A DNA stretch of 64,000 nucleotides from an uncultured Chthonomonadales bacterium (GTDB lineage: Bacteria; Armatimonadota; Chthonomonadetes; Chthonomonadales; CAJBBX01), in contig CALLMM010000050.1 of NCBI GenBank assembly GCA_938005745.1, positions 1 to 64,000 on the forward strand, given 5' to 3'. The notes beneath the pieces were generated by a model. It saw nothing but the letters and a program-made list of their open reading frames with translations, was not told the DNA's origin and searched no databases. Positions 2,014 to 10,870 of this stretch are shown here, piece by piece. The translations under genes were made by a program, and so were the position numbers. How positions within the stretch are numbered: the first letter of the stretch is position 1; every line of letters starts with the position of its first letter.

Positions 2014-2093
2014 GCCGGCATAACGATTAGATAGTCCTACCGTACATGTTGAATATCTGTATTATTGCTTCTCGGACATGGAGGTTCATTCGG

Positions 2094-3338
2094 ATGCGTC
2101 CTCTTGCGCCTGCTCTTGTTCTGGCGGTCCTCGCTCTCTTCACTCTGGAGGCTCCCGTGTCTGCTCAGCTTAAAGCGGCGGCGGGGAAGGTGGACATCTC
2201 CCCGACACGCGCCGCCTTCATCGCCGGATACGCCTCAAACCGGAAAAGCACGGGTCAGCATGATCCGCTCTGGGCGCGCTGCCTGGTGCTTCAGAACGGC
2301 GACCAGACGGTGGCGCTGGTGAGCTGCGATCTGCTGGGAATCATCCGCCCCTATGCAGAGCGGGTGCGCGCGATGGTCCGGAGCGTTCCGGCGGAGCGGG
2401 TATTGATCGGCGCGACCCACACGCACTCCGGACCCGACACCTACGGTCAGTGGGGACCGGACCGGATGACCAGCGGCGTGGATAGGGAGTGGATGGAGGG
2501 GCTTCTGAAGAAGATCGCTGCGCTGGTGGATGAGACGGCGTCGAGACTGGAACCGGCGAAGGTACGATTTGGCAGGCAGGCGGAGGTCGCCAACTGCTCC
2601 TATAATGCGCGCGTTCAGGAGATCCTTGACACCGAGCTGCTGGCGATGCAGGTGGCAAATCCGCAGGGGAAGACCATCGCCACACTGATTAACTTTGCAT
2701 GTCATCCCGAGGTGCTGAACAACCGTACCATGACCTCTGACTTTCCGCACTGGCTGCGGCTGCGCGTGGAGGAGAGGCTCGGCGGCGTGGCGATCTATAT
2801 GAACGGCGCGCTGGGGGGAATGGTGACCGCGCTGATCCAGAACGAGGAGAAGTATCCGAAGGGAGAGGCGTGGCCCGAAGCGGAGCGGATCGGCAACACA
2901 CTGGCGGATGCCACGCTTGCCGCGCTGGAGGGGGCTTCCTGGGAGGAGTCTCCCAACTTCACTTTTCAGCAGCGGCTCTTCCGGGTTCCTCTGGAGAACG
3001 CCGGCTTCAAGCTGCTGATCGCCGCCAAAATTCTGCCCGGCGAATTGGTGGATGGATCGGACATCCTGACGGAGGTCTCCCGCTTCACGCTGGGACCGGC
3101 GGAGTTCATTACGCTTCCGGGAGAGGTGCTGCCGAATATCGGTCTCTATCTCAAAACGAAGATGCGGTCACCTTATAAGTTTCAGCTGGGATTGACCGGC
3201 GACGCGCTGGGGTACATCCTGACGGCGGAGGACTTCATCCTGAAACTCTATGCCTACGAGTCCTCTGTCTCGGTTGGTCCGAAGATGGGTCCGCTGATGA
3301 CCGAAAACCTTCTTGCGTTGATTGAGAGCGGAAAATAG
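2094..3338 (+). CDS. Secreted neutral/alkaline ceramidase-like protein
   Basis: This is a 414-aa protein with a cleavable signal peptide (MRPLAPALVLAVLALFTL to about SAQ). It matches the N-terminal domain of neutral/alkaline non-lysosomal ceramidases: KVDISPT near the mature start, HDPLWARCLVL, SCDLLGI, then the Zn-binding-type segment GATHTHSGPDTYG and NFACHPEVL. Family enzymes hydrolyse the amide of ceramides, but short bacterial members like this often have unknown substrates and lack the C-terminal domain. I chose ATG 2094 because GGAGGT lies 8 bp upstream and it opens a standard signal peptide; the frame extends 16 codons upstream without such features. Stand-alone gene between a pseudopilin gene and the polysaccharide locus. 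Confidence 0.75.
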   Translation: MRPLAPALVLAVLALFTLEAPVSAQLKAAAGKVDISPTRAAFIAGYASNRKSTGQHDPLWARCLVLQNGDQTVALVSCDLLGIIRPYAERVRAMVRSVPAERVLIGATHTHSGPDTYGQWGPDRMTSGVDREWMEGLLKKIAALVDETASRLEPAKVRFGRQAEVANCSYNARVQEILDTELLAMQVANPQGKTIATLINFACHPEVLNNRTMTSDFPHWLRLRVEERLGGVAIYMNGALGGMVTALIQNEEKYPKGEAWPEAERIGNTLADATLAALEGASWEESPNFTFQQRLFRVPLENAGFKLLIAAKILPGELVDGSDILTEVSRFTLGPAEFITLPGEVLPNIGLYLKTKMRSPYKFQLGLTGDALGYILTAEDFILKLYAYESSVSVGPKMGPLMTENLLALIESGK

Positions 3339-3545
3339 TCCGTTTTCAGAGTTGTCGGGAGAAGAGCAGGCATCAGAGTTGAAACGTCGCGCCTTCATAA
3401 GCAGTTCACGGGGGCGCGGCGTATTTATTTTCATCCTTTGGCTGAGCCGTATGATAATCGGTGAGTAGGTTACACTGAGTTGCCAATAATAACAGGGGAA
3501 ATCTCTCATACTGCAATGCCAGTCGGGTGAGGAGCGTTCGTCTTC

Positions 3546-4454
3546 ATGAAGGTATCGGTGATAATCTGTACGCGCAACAGAGGACCGTTGATCGAACAGA
3601 CGCTTCACAGCATCCTTGCCGGCTCGCGGCTGCCGGACGAACTGCTGGTCGTTGATCAGAGCGATGACGGGGCGACCGGCGAGGTCGTTCAGAGGATCGC
3701 GGAGAGCGAGCCGCGCCTTCGCTACCTGCTGACGGAGACGCGCGGACTCTCCCGGGCGCGAAATGTGGGGATTCTGGAGGCGCAGGGCGACCTGATCGCC
3801 TTCACGGATGATGATGTGGTGGTCTTTCCCGACTGGCTGCGGAGGGTGGAGGAGGAGTTTCAAAACTATCCTGATCTGGGGATCCTGTTCGGGACAGTGA
3901 TCCCGCCGGAGAGTTACGACTGGCAGAATGAGCACATCCCCTATATCCTGCTCAAGACCTGTCGTCCGATAACCCGATCTCACTACCATATTGCGGGTAT
4001 GGGCGCAAATATGTGCATCCGCACGAAAGTGATCGAGCGGATCGGACTCTTTGAAGAGTGTCTGGGAGCCGGAACGCCGATGATCGGCTATGAGGACTAT
4101 GAGTACGCCTTTCGCGCGCTCTACGCCGAACCTATGGTTCGGATCCATCATGTGGATGAGATCCGGGTGGTGCATCATGCCGGGGCGCGCGCCGGCGCGG
4201 AGAAAGATCAGTTTACTACGAATATGTTCGGCAAGGGACGCGGTCTCTTCTGGGCGTATCTGTTGAAAAACCGTTTCCGACCGGCGTATCTCTACCGGTT
4301 CCTCTGGTTTAATGGACGGATGATGCGCATTACCCTGATGAGCCTGCTGCGCCTGCGGAAGCCCAGCGGCTTCAAGACCTACCTGTTGACGCTCTACTAC
4401 TGCATGACCGGACTGGCGACCGTTCCTCGCAGAAAAGTTCATCCGCTGTCGTAG
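3546..4454 (+). CDS. Glycosyltransferase family 2 (first of the polysaccharide locus)
   Basis: The 302-aa protein has a GT-A fold. It opens with KVSVIICTRNRG, followed by the nucleotide-sugar site and the metal-binding AFTDDDVVVFPDW (about residues 81-93). GYEDYEYAFRAL near residue 185 is the acceptor/catalytic-base region. It probably transfers one sugar to a growing lipid-linked glycan at the cytoplasmic face. It is followed after 19 bp by a pyruvyltransferase gene, a pairing repeated once more in this locus. No transmembrane segments are obvious except a weakly hydrophobic C-terminus. Donor and acceptor sugars cannot be told. Confidence 0.88.
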   Translation: MKVSVIICTRNRGPLIEQTLHSILAGSRLPDELLVVDQSDDGATGEVVQRIAESEPRLRYLLTETRGLSRARNVGILEAQGDLIAFTDDDVVVFPDWLRRVEEEFQNYPDLGILFGTVIPPESYDWQNEHIPYILLKTCRPITRSHYHIAGMGANMCIRTKVIERIGLFEECLGAGTPMIGYEDYEYAFRALYAEPMVRIHHVDEIRVVHHAGARAGAEKDQFTTNMFGKGRGLFWAYLLKNRFRPAYLYRFLWFNGRMMRITLMSLLRLRKPSGFKTYLLTLYYCMTGLATVPRRKVHPLS

Positions 4455-4473
4455 GACTTTTTATCGAAAGTGA

Positions 4474-5793
4474 ATGCGCCTGTTGAAGATCCTGATCGTA
4501 GATAATGTCCTGTGCAATATGGGAGACGCCGCCATCGTGCTGGCGATGCACGCCTCTCTGCGGGAGGAGTTTGGAGCGGATACGGTTATCAAGACGTGCT
4601 TCTGCGGGGCGACCTCCGATCCGGGAGTCTACGGGCAGCTCTACCCGGAGTTGAACTTGGTGCGCACGTTATGGCATGCACTCTACGACTGGTACACGCC
4701 GAAATGGAAAGTCTGGTCGAAAATCGTCCGTCGAACCGCGCCGGAGCGTTTCACGCTGCAGGCAAAGCTCCATCAGCACGGCATTCCAATCCCGACGCTG
4801 ATCGGCAAGGAGAGAGAGCTGTTTCGCGAATTTGCGGAGTCCGATCTGGTCATCGTTACCGGAGGCGCGCCTCTCTCTACCTCCTGGACGGCACAGTACT
4901 TGCGTCCGCATCGGGTCGCAGAGTATCAGACAGCGCTTCTGCTGGGGAAACCGCTTGTCTTCTATGCCGCCTCTTACGGTCCTTTTACGCAGGAGGACGA
5001 CCTTCCGGATCGCCTGCGGGAGGTGATGGAGCGCGCCGCGGCGGTCATCTGCCGGGACGCCGATGCGCTGACGACAGTGCGTGATCGCATCGGCGTGAAA
5101 ACAGAGAATGTGCATCAGACCATAGACGAGGCGATCCTTCTCACTGCCAGGAGACCGGAAAAGCAGTTTGTCCCGGACAGGAGCCTGCAGAGCCGGCTGG
5201 GGATCGTCGTCCATAAGTGGCACTGGCTCGGATACCCGGATCCGAAGAAGAAGCAGGAGGAGTTTGAAAGACGGATCGCGGAGTGCTGCCGTGAAGTGCT
5301 GCTGCGGAACGATACGGATATCGTCTTTATGACCAGTCATCCGGAGGTGCCCGGCTCCATGTTTGTGGAGGTGGATGTGCCTCTCAGAATTCACGGGATG
5401 CTGCCGGCGGATCTGCAGTCTAGAGCGCATGTGGTGACCGAGTGGGTGCATCCGCAGGAGTTTGCCTGGATCATGGGGCAGTGCGATCTGGTGATCTCCA
5501 GCCGCCTACATGGCGGAATCCTGAGTCTGGCGGGCGGCGCGCCGATCCTCGCGCTGGGCTACGAGCCGAAGACCCGGGGATTTCTGGAGCAGATCGGGCT
5601 GGAGGAGTGGATGTTCCCGATGGGCGAGTTTCAGACGCATGAACTTCTGGACAGGGTCTGCTGGATGCTGGATCATCGCGAGGAGTGCCGCGAGAGGCGC
5701 AATCGCGCGGTGGATCAGGCGCGCCGCATCGCCCTGCAGAATCGAAAGATCACGAGAGCCGCTTTCGAAACGTTTACCAAGAGAGCATGTTAA
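4474..5793 (+). CDS. Polysaccharide pyruvyl transferase family protein
   Basis: The 439-aa protein belongs to the CsaB/WcaK-like family that adds ketal-linked pyruvate from PEP to sugars, or is related to it. Visible marks are the N-terminal ILIVDNVLCNMGDAAI, the central VTGGAPLSTSW, FYAASYGPF, and the C-terminal SSRLHGGILSLAGGAP where family members bind the donor. Pyruvylation makes surface glycans acidic and can serve as the ligand for SLH domains. The stop overlaps the next gene's start by 7 bp (ATGTTAA), implying translational coupling. The Shine-Dalgarno sequence is weak (GAAAG). Some family members are not shown to transfer pyruvate, so the reaction is inferred. Confidence 0.82.
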   Translation: MRLLKILIVDNVLCNMGDAAIVLAMHASLREEFGADTVIKTCFCGATSDPGVYGQLYPELNLVRTLWHALYDWYTPKWKVWSKIVRRTAPERFTLQAKLHQHGIPIPTLIGKERELFREFAESDLVIVTGGAPLSTSWTAQYLRPHRVAEYQTALLLGKPLVFYAASYGPFTQEDDLPDRLREVMERAAAVICRDADALTTVRDRIGVKTENVHQTIDEAILLTARRPEKQFVPDRSLQSRLGIVVHKWHWLGYPDPKKKQEEFERRIAECCREVLLRNDTDIVFMTSHPEVPGSMFVEVDVPLRIHGMLPADLQSRAHVVTEWVHPQEFAWIMGQCDLVISSRLHGGILSLAGGAPILALGYEPKTRGFLEQIGLEEWMFPMGEFQTHELLDRVCWMLDHREECRERRNRAVDQARRIALQNRKITRAAFETFTKRAC

Positions 5794-6725
5794 TCACAGT
5801 CTGCATATCAACCGTGCGTCCGGACACGCTGGAGTATTCCGTGCGCTCCATACTCTCACAGACCTACCGTGACTGGGAACTGATCATCGTGTCTCAGGGA
5901 GGCAGCGCCGACCTGCAGGATGCCGTCTGCAGGACAGTGAAACGGGATGGTCGGATACGGAACATTCATCTCAACGAAAAGGGTCTCAGTCGGGGGCGCA
6001 ACGCCGGCATCGAAGCCGCCCGCGGAGAGGTGATCGCTTTTACCGACGACGACTGTGAAGCGCCGGAGGATTGGCTGCAGACCATTGCGGAGTCGTTTCA
6101 GCAATACCCGGAGGCGGGGCTTCTGGGGGGAAGCCTTATCGCCCCGGATACCCCTCGGTCGCTGATCTCGACCTGCCCGGAGTTTCATGCGAACGAGTGC
6201 TACTACGATCCTCGTAAACAGAGCGCACCCCCCGGATACGGGTGGGCTGGGGGCGATTTCGCGCTGAGAACCTCCGTCGCAAAGAGGGTCGGTCCCTTTG
6301 ATAACTTTCTGGGAGCAGGCACCTTCTTCCCCTGCTGCGAGGATATAGACTACGGTCTCAGGGTGGAGAAAGCAGGGGTCGTCTGTATCTCCTCCCCGCG
6401 TGTGCGCGTGTACCATACCTACGGGCGCCGATACGGGCTGAAAGCGGTATGGAAGCATCTGGATAACTATGCGGTCGGCAGAGGGGCATTTCTAGCAAAG
6501 TTGAAGCAGATCCGCCATCCCCTGGCTGAAATGTGGGAGCGGGAAGAGAGGAATGCTGGATGGTCCAAACTACTCAGAAAGCCTCACCGCTTCCTTCTCG
6601 ACCGATATTTCCGCCGGCGCGTTCGGTACGGGTTCGAGGAGTATAACCGGCTCTTTCGTGTGGAGAACGGACTATCCGTCCCTGTCAACCATCAGGATCA
6701 GGGGAGGAGGGTAGAGACGACATGA
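5787..6725 (+). CDS. Glycosyltransferase family 2 (second of the polysaccharide locus)
   Basis: The 312-aa GT-A enzyme begins LITVCISTVRPDTLEYSVRS and carries the metal-binding AFTDDDCEAPEDW and a late EDIDYGLRVEKAG motif. Its start, ATG 5787, sits inside the stop region of the preceding pyruvyltransferase gene, and its own stop overlaps the following one (ATGA at 6722). The three products are therefore probably made in step. It resembles the first glycosyltransferase of the cluster in layout (start motif, TDDD, E-D-[YI]-[ED]-Y), which suggests duplication of a GT2/pyruvyltransferase module. Substrates unknown. Confidence 0.87.
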   Translation: MLITVCISTVRPDTLEYSVRSILSQTYRDWELIIVSQGGSADLQDAVCRTVKRDGRIRNIHLNEKGLSRGRNAGIEAARGEVIAFTDDDCEAPEDWLQTIAESFQQYPEAGLLGGSLIAPDTPRSLISTCPEFHANECYYDPRKQSAPPGYGWAGGDFALRTSVAKRVGPFDNFLGAGTFFPCCEDIDYGLRVEKAGVVCISSPRVRVYHTYGRRYGLKAVWKHLDNYAVGRGAFLAKLKQIRHPLAEMWEREERNAGWSKLLRKPHRFLLDRYFRRRVRYGFEEYNRLFRVENGLSVPVNHQDQGRRVETT

Positions 6726-7984
6726 AGATCGTCGTGGAGAACAGCGGCTATGATATGCGTAATCTGGGCGATCTGGCAATGCTTCAGATCGGCGTCAATC
6801 GCCTTCACTCTCTCTGGCCCGATGCGCAGATCCATGTGCTCACCCTCAATCCAGAAGCGGTTTTAAAACAGACGCCCGGCGCAGTCGCTTTTCCTTTAGG
6901 GGTCTCGTCCGAAGCCGCGTCCGTTGGATCGGAGAGCGCGCCTACGCCAAAATCTCGTTCTAAAGCGGTGAAAAATCTGTTGAACGGCTTGAAAGGGAAG
7001 ATCGTCTACCGGCATCCCTCGCTGGCTCTAAAGCTGATGACCATTCGCCGCAACCGATACGGGCTGGAGAAGATGATCCGAGAGGCAGATCTGGTGGTGG
7101 CGACCGGCGGAGGATATATCACCGAAATATTCCCCATCAACATGATGGGAGCGTTAACGACGCTGGACATCGCGCGAAGATGCGGCAAACCGTCCGTTCT
7201 CATGGGGCATGGAATCGGACCGATTGACAATCCCCATCTATTACGATTAACCGGCAGGGTGCTGCGAACGGCGAGTCTCATCACGTTGCGGGAGAGGCGG
7301 TTCAGTCTTCCTCTGGTTGAGCAGATGGGCGTCTCGAAAGACCGAATCCGTGTTACGGGAGATGACGCGGTCGAATATAGCTATATCAACCGTCTGAACC
7401 ATGCAGGAGAGGGGCTGGGGATCAACCTGCGGGTAGCCAGCTACTCGGAGGTGAATTCAGACCTTCTGCAGAAGGTGCGTTCCGTTTTCCAGATGGTTGT
7501 GAAGGAGTTGAAGGCTCCCCTGATACCCCTGCCGATCTCCTTCTACGGGCGTGGCGACGATCTGGAGGCGATCGAGCGGCTGACGCGGGGGCTGGGCGGC
7601 AGTGCGGATAAGAGCAGAGGTTTTGATTCGCCCCTAGATGTCGCTCATGAGGCGTCTCGCTGCCGGGTGGTGGTCACGGGAAGCTACCACGCAGGGGTCT
7701 TCGCGCTGTCTCAGGGCGTGCCTGCGGTCTGTCTGGCGAAGTCGAAGTACTATGTGATGAAATTTGAGGGGTTAGCCGATATGTTCGGAAAGGGGTGCGC
7801 CGTGCTACATCTGGACGACCCGATGCTGGAGGATAAGCTGCTGCAGACGGTACGTCAGTTGTGGCAGGACGCAGACAGTTATCGCAACAGCCTGCTTTCC
7901 GCCGCGCAAGAACAGATGGAGCAGAGCCGGGAAGCCTACAGAAGCCTGCCGGAAATAGTGACGAGAGCGACGATGACTGCCTAA
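6722..7984 (+). CDS. Polysaccharide pyruvyl transferase family protein (second copy)
   Basis: The 420-aa protein begins KIVVENSGYDMRNLGDLAML, the family's nucleotide/PEP-binding start, followed by VVATGGGYITEIFP, SVLMGHGIGPIDN, and the C-terminal VTGSYHAGVFALSQGVP. It probably modifies a sugar of the same glycan with pyruvate. It overlaps the upstream glycosyltransferase gene by 4 bp. Compared with the first copy its middle section is shorter and its N-terminus differs, so the two likely act on different sugars. A linker rich in Ser, Lys and Ala lies near residues 60-90. Confidence 0.82.
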   Translation: MKIVVENSGYDMRNLGDLAMLQIGVNRLHSLWPDAQIHVLTLNPEAVLKQTPGAVAFPLGVSSEAASVGSESAPTPKSRSKAVKNLLNGLKGKIVYRHPSLALKLMTIRRNRYGLEKMIREADLVVATGGGYITEIFPINMMGALTTLDIARRCGKPSVLMGHGIGPIDNPHLLRLTGRVLRTASLITLRERRFSLPLVEQMGVSKDRIRVTGDDAVEYSYINRLNHAGEGLGINLRVASYSEVNSDLLQKVRSVFQMVVKELKAPLIPLPISFYGRGDDLEAIERLTRGLGGSADKSRGFDSPLDVAHEASRCRVVVTGSYHAGVFALSQGVPAVCLAKSKYYVMKFEGLADMFGKGCAVLHLDDPMLEDKLLQTVRQLWQDADSYRNSLLSAAQEQMEQSREAYRSLPEIVTRATMTA

Positions 7985-8048
7985 GAGATCAACACCATGG
8001 GAGCGAAGCTGCTGCCGTTGATGGCTTCGGAGAGGAACCATACCAGCG

Positions 8049-9269
8049 ATGAGGATGACACGACCACGAAAAGTTTTGGAATCGGACGGGCGCGTGACGC
8101 TGCTGCATCCGGTGACGGTGCAGGACAGAGAGTTCGAGCTGTTTCTACGTGTTCCAGGCGAGCCGGTCTATGAGGGCGTGGAGCCGTTTATTGCGCTGAC
8201 CCTGCTGCCCGCCATGCGTCTGGGAACCGATATAGTGGTGGAGACGCCTGTCTCGCCGAAGTTCCTGAAGGGAATTGAGAAGATACAGGAGCAGCTTCAT
8301 GCGTGGTTTCCCCAAGAGCTGAAAAAGGTCCGAGTTGAGGCGGAGCCAATGCGAAGTCCGCCTGCGCCGATCGAAACGGGGAAGTCGGGGTGCCTCTTCA
8401 GCGGAGGTGTCGACTCGTTCTACTCTATACTGACGCATCGCGAGGAGCTGAGCGGACTGATTTTCGGTCACGGACTGGATATTCAATTAGATCGTTTTGA
8501 TCTTCGAGAGCGCGTGCAACAGCAGCTTCGTCATGCCGCCGAAGATATACGGCTGCCGCTCGTGGAAGTGGAGACTAATGCACGTCACCTTTTCGATGCG
8601 ACGGTAGACTGGGGGAAGCACTATCATGGATCCGTGCTGGCAGGGGTCGCCCTTGTTCTGTCTCGCAGGTTCGCCAGCATGATAATCCCCTCAGGAAGAA
8701 CTCCAGACATGCTTTTCCCGTGGGGGTCCCATCCAGAGGTTGACCCGCTCTGGAGTACTGAGTGGTTTGCCATTATCCATGACAGCATTGAGACTTCTCG
8801 CTCAGAGAAGATCATGTTCATTGCAGGGGCGGAGGTTGCTCAAAAGCATCTGCGCGTCTGTTATCATAACGTCTCTGGCAAGCTCAACTGCGGGAGATGC
8901 GAGAAGTGTCTTCGAACCATGGTGGTGCTTCGCGCTGCGGGTGTGCTGGACAGATGTACTAACTTTGAAACCGAGCTAGATTTGAAGCGGGTCGCATCTT
9001 TGCCATTGCTATCCCGGAATATTGAAGTATGGTATGAAGATATTCTCAAAACTGTACGGAAAAACGACAACGACCTGGAGTTAAAACAGGCGCTGGAGGA
9101 CTGCTTGAACCGCAAATTCGATCGTGGAGTGCTTCGGCTTCTTCGTCGGATATGGTGGAGACTCAAGAGATATAAGTATCGCAACCGGAATCTTTTCTAT
9201 CCCATCTCCCTTGCAGAGATTGAAGCGAGATCGAAACAGGCGGGAGTTATCACCAGTTCCGCGTCTTAA
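8049..9269 (+). CDS. QueC-like PP-loop ATPase of the polysaccharide locus
   Basis: The 406-aa protein has an adenine nucleotide alpha-hydrolase (PP-loop) core: SGGVDS at about residues 118-123. A Zn-type cysteine cluster lies at C271, C281, C284 and C287 (NCGRCEKC), spaced much like that of 7-cyano-7-deazaguanine synthase. Such enzymes activate a carboxylate or amide by adenylation. An N-terminal ~110 residues without recognised motifs and a basic C-terminal tail are extra to QueC. Placement between a pyruvyltransferase and a flippase argues for glycan modification over queuosine synthesis, but this is inference. The start could also be the ATG two codons downstream (8055). Confidence 0.7.
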   Translation: MRMTRPRKVLESDGRVTLLHPVTVQDREFELFLRVPGEPVYEGVEPFIALTLLPAMRLGTDIVVETPVSPKFLKGIEKIQEQLHAWFPQELKKVRVEAEPMRSPPAPIETGKSGCLFSGGVDSFYSILTHREELSGLIFGHGLDIQLDRFDLRERVQQQLRHAAEDIRLPLVEVETNARHLFDATVDWGKHYHGSVLAGVALVLSRRFASMIIPSGRTPDMLFPWGSHPEVDPLWSTEWFAIIHDSIETSRSEKIMFIAGAEVAQKHLRVCYHNVSGKLNCGRCEKCLRTMVVLRAAGVLDRCTNFETELDLKRVASLPLLSRNIEVWYEDILKTVRKNDNDLELKQALEDCLNRKFDRGVLRLLRRIWWRLKRYKYRNRNLFYPISLAEIEARSKQAGVITSSAS

Positions 9270-9382
9270 CAGGGGAAGAGCAGAGAAGCCGGTTCGCGAG
9301 AAATGGATTGGATGAAGCATTAGACTGAAAATGGATCATGAACGTGTGAAGAGAGCAAGTTTGAGTTGATTGGGCTGGAGCG

Positions 9383-10870
9383 TTGGCAATTCAAACCGAG
9401 AATGGACCTTTGCCCGCGATCTCACATCAGAAGGTTGCGAAGAACACTATCGTCTATCTTCTGGGGCAGATCGTCTCCTGGTGCGTCACCTTTCTGACCG
9501 TCTCCATCATCCCCCGGCGTATTGGCGAGGAGGGGATGGGGCAGCTGGCGGTCGCCGCCTCCATCACCAATGCGGTCGGGGCGATTTTTGCTCTGGGAAT
9601 AGACAGCTATCTGGTCGCGGAGATCGGACGCAGCCGGGATCAGGCGGACCGGCTGGTTCGCAGTCTCTGGGCGTTTCGTCTTGTAACGCTGCTGCCGCAG
9701 ATTCTGGTCACCCTGCTAGTGATGAAGGTCATGCATGTCGGCGATCTGATCTTCTACATCGGCTGCCTGAACCTCGTCAGCATGATCGCCGCGAAGGTCT
9801 TCAATCCCATTCGCTCCGCCTTCAACGGCTGGGAAAACGCGCGCGCAGTCTCCGTGATGGATTTCGCCTCCACGCTGCCGATGTTGATGGCGATCCCGTT
9901 TCTGCACTACGGTCCGCTGGGCATCTCCGTCATCTCCACCCTCTGGAACTATGTCATCCTGATCAGCAGCCTGATCGCTATCCGGGGCATCATCCGCCTG
10001 ATGCCGCAGTTTGATGTCGCGCTCTGGAAAGAGTTGATCAAAGGGGGACTGCCCTTCTTCGCCAACGGCGTGATCATGAGCCTGTTCGGGTTCAGCTCCG
10101 TGTTTGTTCTGCGCCACTATATGAATGATGCGGCGGTAGGGGAGTACAACCAGGTAATCCGGCTTGGCGGCACCTTTCTCTTCCTGCCGGTTGCCATCGG
10201 CACGGCGCTGCTGCCTTCTCTGGCGCGTCTGGCGGATGTGAACCCGGACGACTTTCGCAGGATGCAGTCGCGCATGCTGTCGCTAATGATTGCGATGGGG
10301 CTTCCGGTCGCAACGCTCATCTTTCTGCTGGCTTTTCCGTTCACCAGACTGCTCTACGGTCAGGGGAAATTTCTGGCGGTTCCGGTTCTGCTGCAGCTCT
10401 ACGCCCTGATGATCATTCCGCTCTACATCAACACCACCATCTATCGTTTTTTGATCGCGCAGAAGAAGAACGCCGTCTGGAGCGGCTTTCTTGGCGGCAC
10501 GGTGCTGATGCATGTGGTCTTCAGTTTTCTGCTCACTCCGCTGGCGATGCGCTGGACACGTTTCGGTCAACTGGGGGTGCTTGCGTCCAATATCCTCGCC
10601 GAGATCATCACCGTCATCTTCGCGTTTATTCTGCTGCGATCGAACCCGCTCAATCGGGAGACGGCGGAGAAGATCCTGCGTTCCCTGCTGGCGACGGCGT
10701 TGATGGCGGGGGCGGTCTGGCTCACAAGGAGCCTCTTTATCCTGATACCGGCTCTGCTGGGTGTGGCGACCTACCTTGTGAGCGCATACTACCTGAAGGT
10801 GCTCGGAGAGGAGGATCAGCGCAAGGTGGTGGAGATCTTCCGGAAGCGGTTCCAGCGAAGCCGGGCTTAA
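9383..10870 (+). CDS. Wzx-type polysaccharide flippase (MOP superfamily)
   Basis: The 495-aa integral membrane protein has about 14 hydrophobic helices, with an opening KNTIVYLLGQIVSWCVTFL and RRIGEEGMGQL, the hallmark of O-antigen/teichoic acid exporters. It should move the undecaprenyl-linked repeat made by the upstream enzymes across the cytoplasmic membrane. The most upstream start is TTG 9383, with GGAG only two bases before it, so the exact start is uncertain; no ATG occurs in frame for 50 codons. Its stop overlaps the stop of the convergent dehydrogenase gene by 4 bp. No polymerase (Wzy) is recognised nearby. Confidence 0.88.
   Translation: MAIQTENGPLPAISHQKVAKNTIVYLLGQIVSWCVTFLTVSIIPRRIGEEGMGQLAVAASITNAVGAIFALGIDSYLVAEIGRSRDQADRLVRSLWAFRLVTLLPQILVTLLVMKVMHVGDLIFYIGCLNLVSMIAAKVFNPIRSAFNGWENARAVSVMDFASTLPMLMAIPFLHYGPLGISVISTLWNYVILISSLIAIRGIIRLMPQFDVALWKELIKGGLPFFANGVIMSLFGFSSVFVLRHYMNDAAVGEYNQVIRLGGTFLFLPVAIGTALLPSLARLADVNPDDFRRMQSRMLSLMIAMGLPVATLIFLLAFPFTRLLYGQGKFLAVPVLLQLYALMIIPLYINTTIYRFLIAQKKNAVWSGFLGGTVLMHVVFSFLLTPLAMRWTRFGQLGVLASNILAEIITVIFAFILLRSNPLNRETAEKILRSLLATALMAGAVWLTRSLFILIPALLGVATYLVSAYYLKVLGEEDQRKVVEIFRKRFQRSRA

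Follow-up and report, generated by a model that had tools for sequence, protein, structure and literature searches.

Recurrent pairing of a predicted QueC/QatC-fold PP-loop protein with PF04230 genes points to a possible new modification of surface sugars

Analysis of a 64,000-nucleotide stretch of DNA from an uncultured Chthonomonadales bacterium (hereafter the window) revealed a PP-loop protein whose homologues recurrently lie beside genes of the PF04230 pyruvyltransferase family. This pairing, together with one clear natural fusion of the two domains, is the strongest clue to the role of the protein and lay beyond the reach of the preliminary description of this DNA; its occurrence across many phyla hints at a route of surface-sugar modification that would be new. 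We give an even chance to the window protein being a glycan-modifying enzyme of the QueC/QatC fold, which would use ATP to adenylate a carboxylate and form an amide on a surface glycan. If such an enzyme activated and amidated a pyruvate ketal, it would explain amidated or conjugated sugars where the gene list predicts plain pyruvylation, and the QueC fold group would gain a branch devoted to glycans.

The gene is a single intact open frame in the ORF listing, and both the SGGVDS PP-loop and the C-X9-C-X2-C-X2-C site announced in the preliminary description were located in its product (Table 1). In a family alignment of 98 rows (the window protein and 97 of 99 candidates, the near-duplicates L033 and L015 being left out), residues G120, D122, K254, C271, N280, C281, C284 and C287 are invariant, so the two motifs do not occur by chance. 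Conservation across the family covers the PP-loop, G142, D144, W188, P229, D232, R251, K254 and the Cys4 site. The spacing between the first and second Cys is 9 residues in 71 and 8 residues in 17 of 120 family sequences. The protein is probably zinc-binding, as would be expected of the Cys4 site by analogy with QueC and QatC.

Table 1. Coordinates of the PP-loop gene, its motifs and its neighbours in the window.
Feature	Position	Strand	Remarks
Glycosyltransferase family 2	3546-4454	+	Pfam
Second PF04230 protein	4474-5793	+	Pfam; carries SSRLHG
Glycosyltransferase family 2	5685-6725	+	Pfam; real start probably downstream of 5685
PF04230 pyruvyltransferase-family protein	6722-7984	+	Pfam E 2.3e-34; directly upstream of PP-loop gene
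PP-loop protein, predicted QueC-fold enzyme	8049-9269	+	406 aa; motifs, predicted fold
N-terminal domain, mixed alpha/beta	8049-8384	+	residues 1-112
PP-loop SGGVDS	8400-8417	+	residues 118-123
Conserved PWGSHPEVDPLWS loop	8718-8756	+	residues 224-236; family alignment
CYHNVSGKLNCGRCEKC, C-X9-C-X2-C-X2-C site	8859-8909	+	residues 271-287
Wzx-like flippase	9383-10870	+	Pfam; PF01943/PF13440 Polysacc_synt

The PP-loop gene is the fifth of six plus-strand genes (3546-10870), in the order GT2, PF04230, GT2, PF04230, PP-loop and Wzx-like flippase. It lies in a surface-glycan locus, between a PF04230 gene and a flippase gene, as had been described from the start; the second GT2 gene overlaps the PF04230 gene that follows it by 4 bases. 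The GC content over the glycan genes (window 3500-10500) is 0.51-0.60, mostly under the ~0.60-0.66 of the flanks, with its minimum over the PP-loop gene; this profile would fit an island gained by horizontal transfer but does not prove it. A neutral/alkaline ceramidase-like protein is encoded upstream of the glycan locus, at 2046-3338.

In the genome scan at least 211 stretches were confirmed; they were ranked by how similar they are to the window protein, and the top 80 were retained. By domain coordinates, 37 of these 80 loci have PF04230 no farther than about 8 kb from the PP domain, and in 29 of the 37 the nearest copy shares its strand. The association peaks sharply beside the PP gene: 25 PF04230 domains lie less than 1 kb from the PP domain, a density of 164 per Mb; another 9 lie 1-2 kb away and 4 lie 2-3 kb away, whereas the ~559 kb available beyond 3 kb contain 2. 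This tally was obtained with a custom PF04230 profile and a simple ORF caller, and L041, L090 and L098, missed by gene calling, were recovered by domain coordinates. The fusion, L070, another of the 80 loci, carries PF04230 at residues 453-643 (Pfam E 3.9e-7) and stands outside the 37, scoring weakly (15 bits) on the custom profile. An N-terminal PF04230 match in L024 falls below the cutoff (20.1 bits vs 25.3), and L135 was rejected as a PF04230-PP fusion, consisting of two overlapping frames. As the 80 loci are those of at least 211 whose PP-loop proteins are most similar to the window protein, they may exaggerate the share of PF04230 in the entire family. Among the same best 80, neither a PF04230 gene nor a fusion was detected in 42 (L070 being counted as a fusion), so the family also occurs outside the PF04230 setting.

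Further counts show the pair as well. PF04230 is the same-strand neighbour in 5 of 57 upstream and 8 of 37 downstream cases (sets of 58 and 38 from which the near-duplicate L033 was dropped), and an annotated pyruvyl transferase adjoins the homologue or lies two genes off in four of the six plasmid records inspected. In a replicate from the window's own phylum, made of loci not picked by the pattern scan, PF04230 is close by in 3 of 9. On a tree of 120 of the 124 homologous ORFs (fragments dropped), with labels that predate the recovery of L041, L090 and L098, PF04230 changes state 28 times versus a mean of 39 in shuffled labels (0/500 shuffles as low), and at least 14 changes are forced by the starred branches. 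The pairing is therefore clustered, yet has been gained or lost many times.

The AlphaFold2 model built from the 98-row alignment has a pLDDT of 92 and a predicted fold of the QueC/QatC group. When Foldseek's top 1000 PDB chains were ranked with VIA-align, QatC was the top match (Z 14.4, 4.8 Å, 286 residues, model residues 1-358), followed by QueC (Z 12.6, residues 110-299 and 110-340) and Cap9 (Z 11.4); the sulfur-transferring LarE, TtuA, MnmA and ThiI ranked under these three, at Z 8-9 (about 9 at best). The whole model has no Foldseek match in the PDB at E 1e-3 and one, unnamed, in a viral library. The label of QueC-like enzyme thus holds for the predicted fold, but the closest structural match in this comparison is QatC and not canonical QueC. 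Profile comparison, which covers the Cys site only, gives 83.6% over 29 columns with the genome's own QueC and, by hhalign, 27% with QatC-like proteins.

Residues 1-112 are predicted to be folded, with a pLDDT of 94 as an isolated domain. The statement that this ~110-residue extension is not seen in QueC stands for QueC itself; QatC, a QueC-family protein, has one too according to the available text of PMC12424860. Matches to the isolated domain are weak and RNase H-like (best Z 5.9), which may reflect only a common arrangement, and QatC is not among the matches listed for it, though the whole model aligns to QatC over 1-358. Like the window protein, QatC of the qatABCD anti-phage system is about 400 aa long, with residues ahead of a QueC core (predicted for the window protein) and a Cys4 site, which is a zinc site in QatC; but the sequence relation is weak, the gene neighbours are different and the zinc motif differs, being C(x)19CGxCxxRR in the part of PMC13329287 available. 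QueC shares the SGGxDS PP-loop, the C-X8/9-C-X2-C-X2-C site and the core fold; unlike the window family, it has no N-terminal domain and it carries YPDC. Cap9 of type IV CBASS shares the QueC core, but is only about 185 aa and retains the QueC substrate motifs, as given in the same available text (PMC13329287).

The window protein is not the QueC of the cell, because the genome carries a bona fide queC elsewhere (PF06508, E 4e-70) adjoining a queE-like gene, the latter identified by eye from its sequence; a PTPS/QueD-family gene is also present. The window protein matches no Pfam family at E 0.01, PF06508 and PF00733 (Asn_synthase) included, no NCBIfam family and, by sequence, no PDB entry. 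PF06508 is matched weakly by 4 of the 98 aligned family members (best E 8.2e-5), and PHROG 1550, 'QueC-like queuosine biosynthesis', matches the region of the Cys site only. With queC adjoining queE elsewhere and no Pfam QueC match in the window protein, a canonical QueC or queuosine role was rejected. The preliminary description had named two situations that would speak against a role outside queuosine synthesis, namely homologues clustering with queuosine genes and a genome without another queC; neither was found, since the genome keeps its own queC and phmmer detected no QueC or QueE homologue among 7040 ORFs from 100 loci and the window (a file without a positive control). The neighbours in the window are glycan genes, again unlike a queuosine setting.

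The same description had allowed for nitrile formation, of which we find no evidence. Not one of the 120 family sequences checked carries YPDC, whereas the genome's own QueC scored positive, and the PWGSHPEVDPLWS loop sits where QueC has YPDC, a placement made by landmark order and not by residue-level superposition. Among 29 carrier genomes (28 loci plus the window's own; 29 of the 80 had been chosen in favour of large or named records, and L107 was left out), 10 lack both a QueC-family and a QueD/PTPS-family match at thresholds of E 1e-10 for PF06508 and E 1e-6 for PF01242, their completeness not being given and salvage being possible. They comprise Rhodococcus/Rhodococcoides, Williamsia, Parafrankia, Brevibacterium, Mesoflavibacter, Aromatoleum and Streptomyces records, and five of the ten have PF04230 in the locus (L058, L061, L079, L081 and L098). 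A 7-deazaguanine made by the cell is therefore unlikely as a substrate and would not be a general one.

In the mechanism that we favour, the enzyme would bind ATP at the PP-loop and adenylate a carboxylate, and the acyl group would then be handed to ammonia or another amine, so that an amide would form either on the surface glycan itself or on the lipid-linked repeat unit. We reasonably infer an amide modification of the glycan, favoured because features of the ATP-dependent carboxylate activation of the QueC group are retained and because carboxylate-amine ligases of other types turn up repeatedly among the loci. Cap9, one of the closest matches in fold, reportedly couples a carboxylate onto a protein N-terminal amine, in the available text of PMC11996544 and PMC12424860, and the uronamide-making WbpS, taken up below, is a precedent for this reading too. 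Among the 101 sources scanned, Asn_synthase-like genes occur in 6 (5 labelled with PF04230), Mur-ligase-like genes in 4 (3 with PF04230) and RimK-like genes in 8 (none with PF04230). The Asn_synthase-like proteins of L046, L055, L072, L085 and L105 have SGGxDS, lack the N-terminal Cys and are encoded near PP-loop and PF04230 genes. RimK ATP-grasp and PP-loop genes occur together, without PF04230, in L082, L084, L087, L088, L095 and L099, several with a GNAT-like gene; L084, L087 and L088 hold a TLC/cNMP-binding transporter-like gene too.

Pyruvate ketals are acidic decorations of many bacterial surface glycans. In loci with PF04230, the carboxylate would most likely be that of a pyruvate ketal added by the partner, the leading though unproven candidate, with a uronic acid as the alternative. 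A complete two-step system, in which the PF04230 protein adds the ketal and the QueC-fold enzyme converts its carboxylate to a neutral carboxamide or to a link with another amine, is a tentative proposal that we hold with distinctly less confidence than the amide-forming role itself. If true, it would be a widespread glycan modification undescribed in the literature searched, where no amidated pyruvate ketal was found, and it would give the QueC fold one more use, next to base synthesis and protein conjugation.

The partner proteins bear on this proposal. Accepted bacterial pyruvyltransferases differ at the RLH position. Both PF04230 proteins of the window match the Pfam family, and an R-x-H type pattern is present in 35 of 45 PF04230 hits; the protein at 4474-5793 has RLH, while the adjacent partner at 6722-7984 has SYH instead, and this lack of the Arg may count against the main reading. 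The available text of PMC6801904 gives R337-L338-H339 of Pvg1p as PEP-contact residues in a computational model.

The strongest alternative, possible but clearly less probable than the main reading, is that the protein is a uronamide synthase. It would amidate a uronic acid in the glycan and so parallel WbpS without being homologous to it, its linkage to PF04230 being incidental to acidic glycans. WbpS and WbqG provide the precedent: they are ATP-dependent enzymes of the asparagine-synthase type that make a glycan amide in surface-glycan pathways, WbpS producing uronamide sugars, in the text of PMC7468200 available. Amidated glucuronic acid is also reported in C. jejuni, in a source available in part, and profiles detect GT2, GT4 or Wzx genes in 42 of the best 80 of at least 211 loci. 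WbpS and WbqG differ from the window protein in belonging to the Asn_synthase family, of which it has no hit, and mere co-occurrence does not predict either the sharp peak of PF04230 beside the PP gene or the L070 fusion. WbpG, an N-acetyl sugar amidotransferase (PF06508 cluster 5), is likewise a QueC-superfamily protein of an O-antigen locus, but its Cys motif, CxxC(x)6CxC, is ordered differently according to the available text of PMC13329287, and the window protein has no PF06508 match at E 0.01. That survey of the QueC group, which covers PF06508, does not describe the window family in the portion available.

An amide-former whose substrates are small peptides or metabolites of another kind, and for which glycan loci would be one setting of several, is unlikely. 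It would account for loci combining GNAT, RimK and PP genes, as in a Thermodesulfobacteriota-rich group where GNAT and RimK genes stand in place of PF04230, and for the 30 of 80 loci (best of at least 211) with neither PF04230 nor GT2/GT4/Wzx genes by the profiles used; by itself it leaves the PF04230 pairing of the window unexplained. These loci, the 42 without PF04230 and the lack of an amidated pyruvate ketal in the literature searched also count against the main reading. Sulfur transfer, giving a thiocarboxylate or thioamide on the glycan with a cluster held at the Cys4 site in the manner of TtuA or LarE, is quite unlikely. The structural matches to sulfur-transferring PP-loop enzymes such as LarE and MnmA may nevertheless count against the main reading, but QatC, QueC and Cap9 clearly outscore them in the fold comparison and the Cys spacing is of the QueC type.

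We regard as very unlikely that the protein is an anti-phage QatC relative merely passing through glycan islands: QatC is its best structural match and 13 homologues lie on viral contigs, but its neighbours are GT2, PF04230 and Wzx genes, the profile match to QatC is weak, and PADLOC returned nothing for the window protein at E 1, QatC profile included; of 7 family members, six had no hit and one matched QatC at E 0.071. The least probable reading, with a very slim chance, is that the window protein, like Cap9, attaches 7-carboxy-7-deazaguanine to an amine of the glycan or of a partner protein, which the fold common to QatC, QueC and Cap9 and the queC, queE and PTPS-family genes of the genome would allow, but the lack of YPDC and the carriers without both gene families argue against it.

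Matches were found in none of 60 relatives of the window's genome and in 10 of 291 genomes of its phylum, its own counted. About 20 phyla are represented, judging from tree labels and the titles of genome-scan matches among the best 80 of at least 211, and homologues occur in 26 plasmid records, among them Azospirillum, cyanobacteria, haloarchaea and Priestia. They include cultured strains in which the PP-loop/PF04230 pair could be tested. The QatC profile matches at E 1e-30 in 47 of the 291 genomes of the phylum, mostly at ~150-240 bits, the two best at 592-700. A paralogue with 39% identity lies elsewhere in the window's genome, beside a GNAT/FemAB-like gene; a stop codon reported in it is the terminal one, and the gene is intact. 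Three or four PP-loop gene copies stand in tandem in L104, L108 and L055, and on a viral contig (L026, 7845-10391) an Asp_Arg_Hydrox domain comes after a PP-loop domain within one reading frame.
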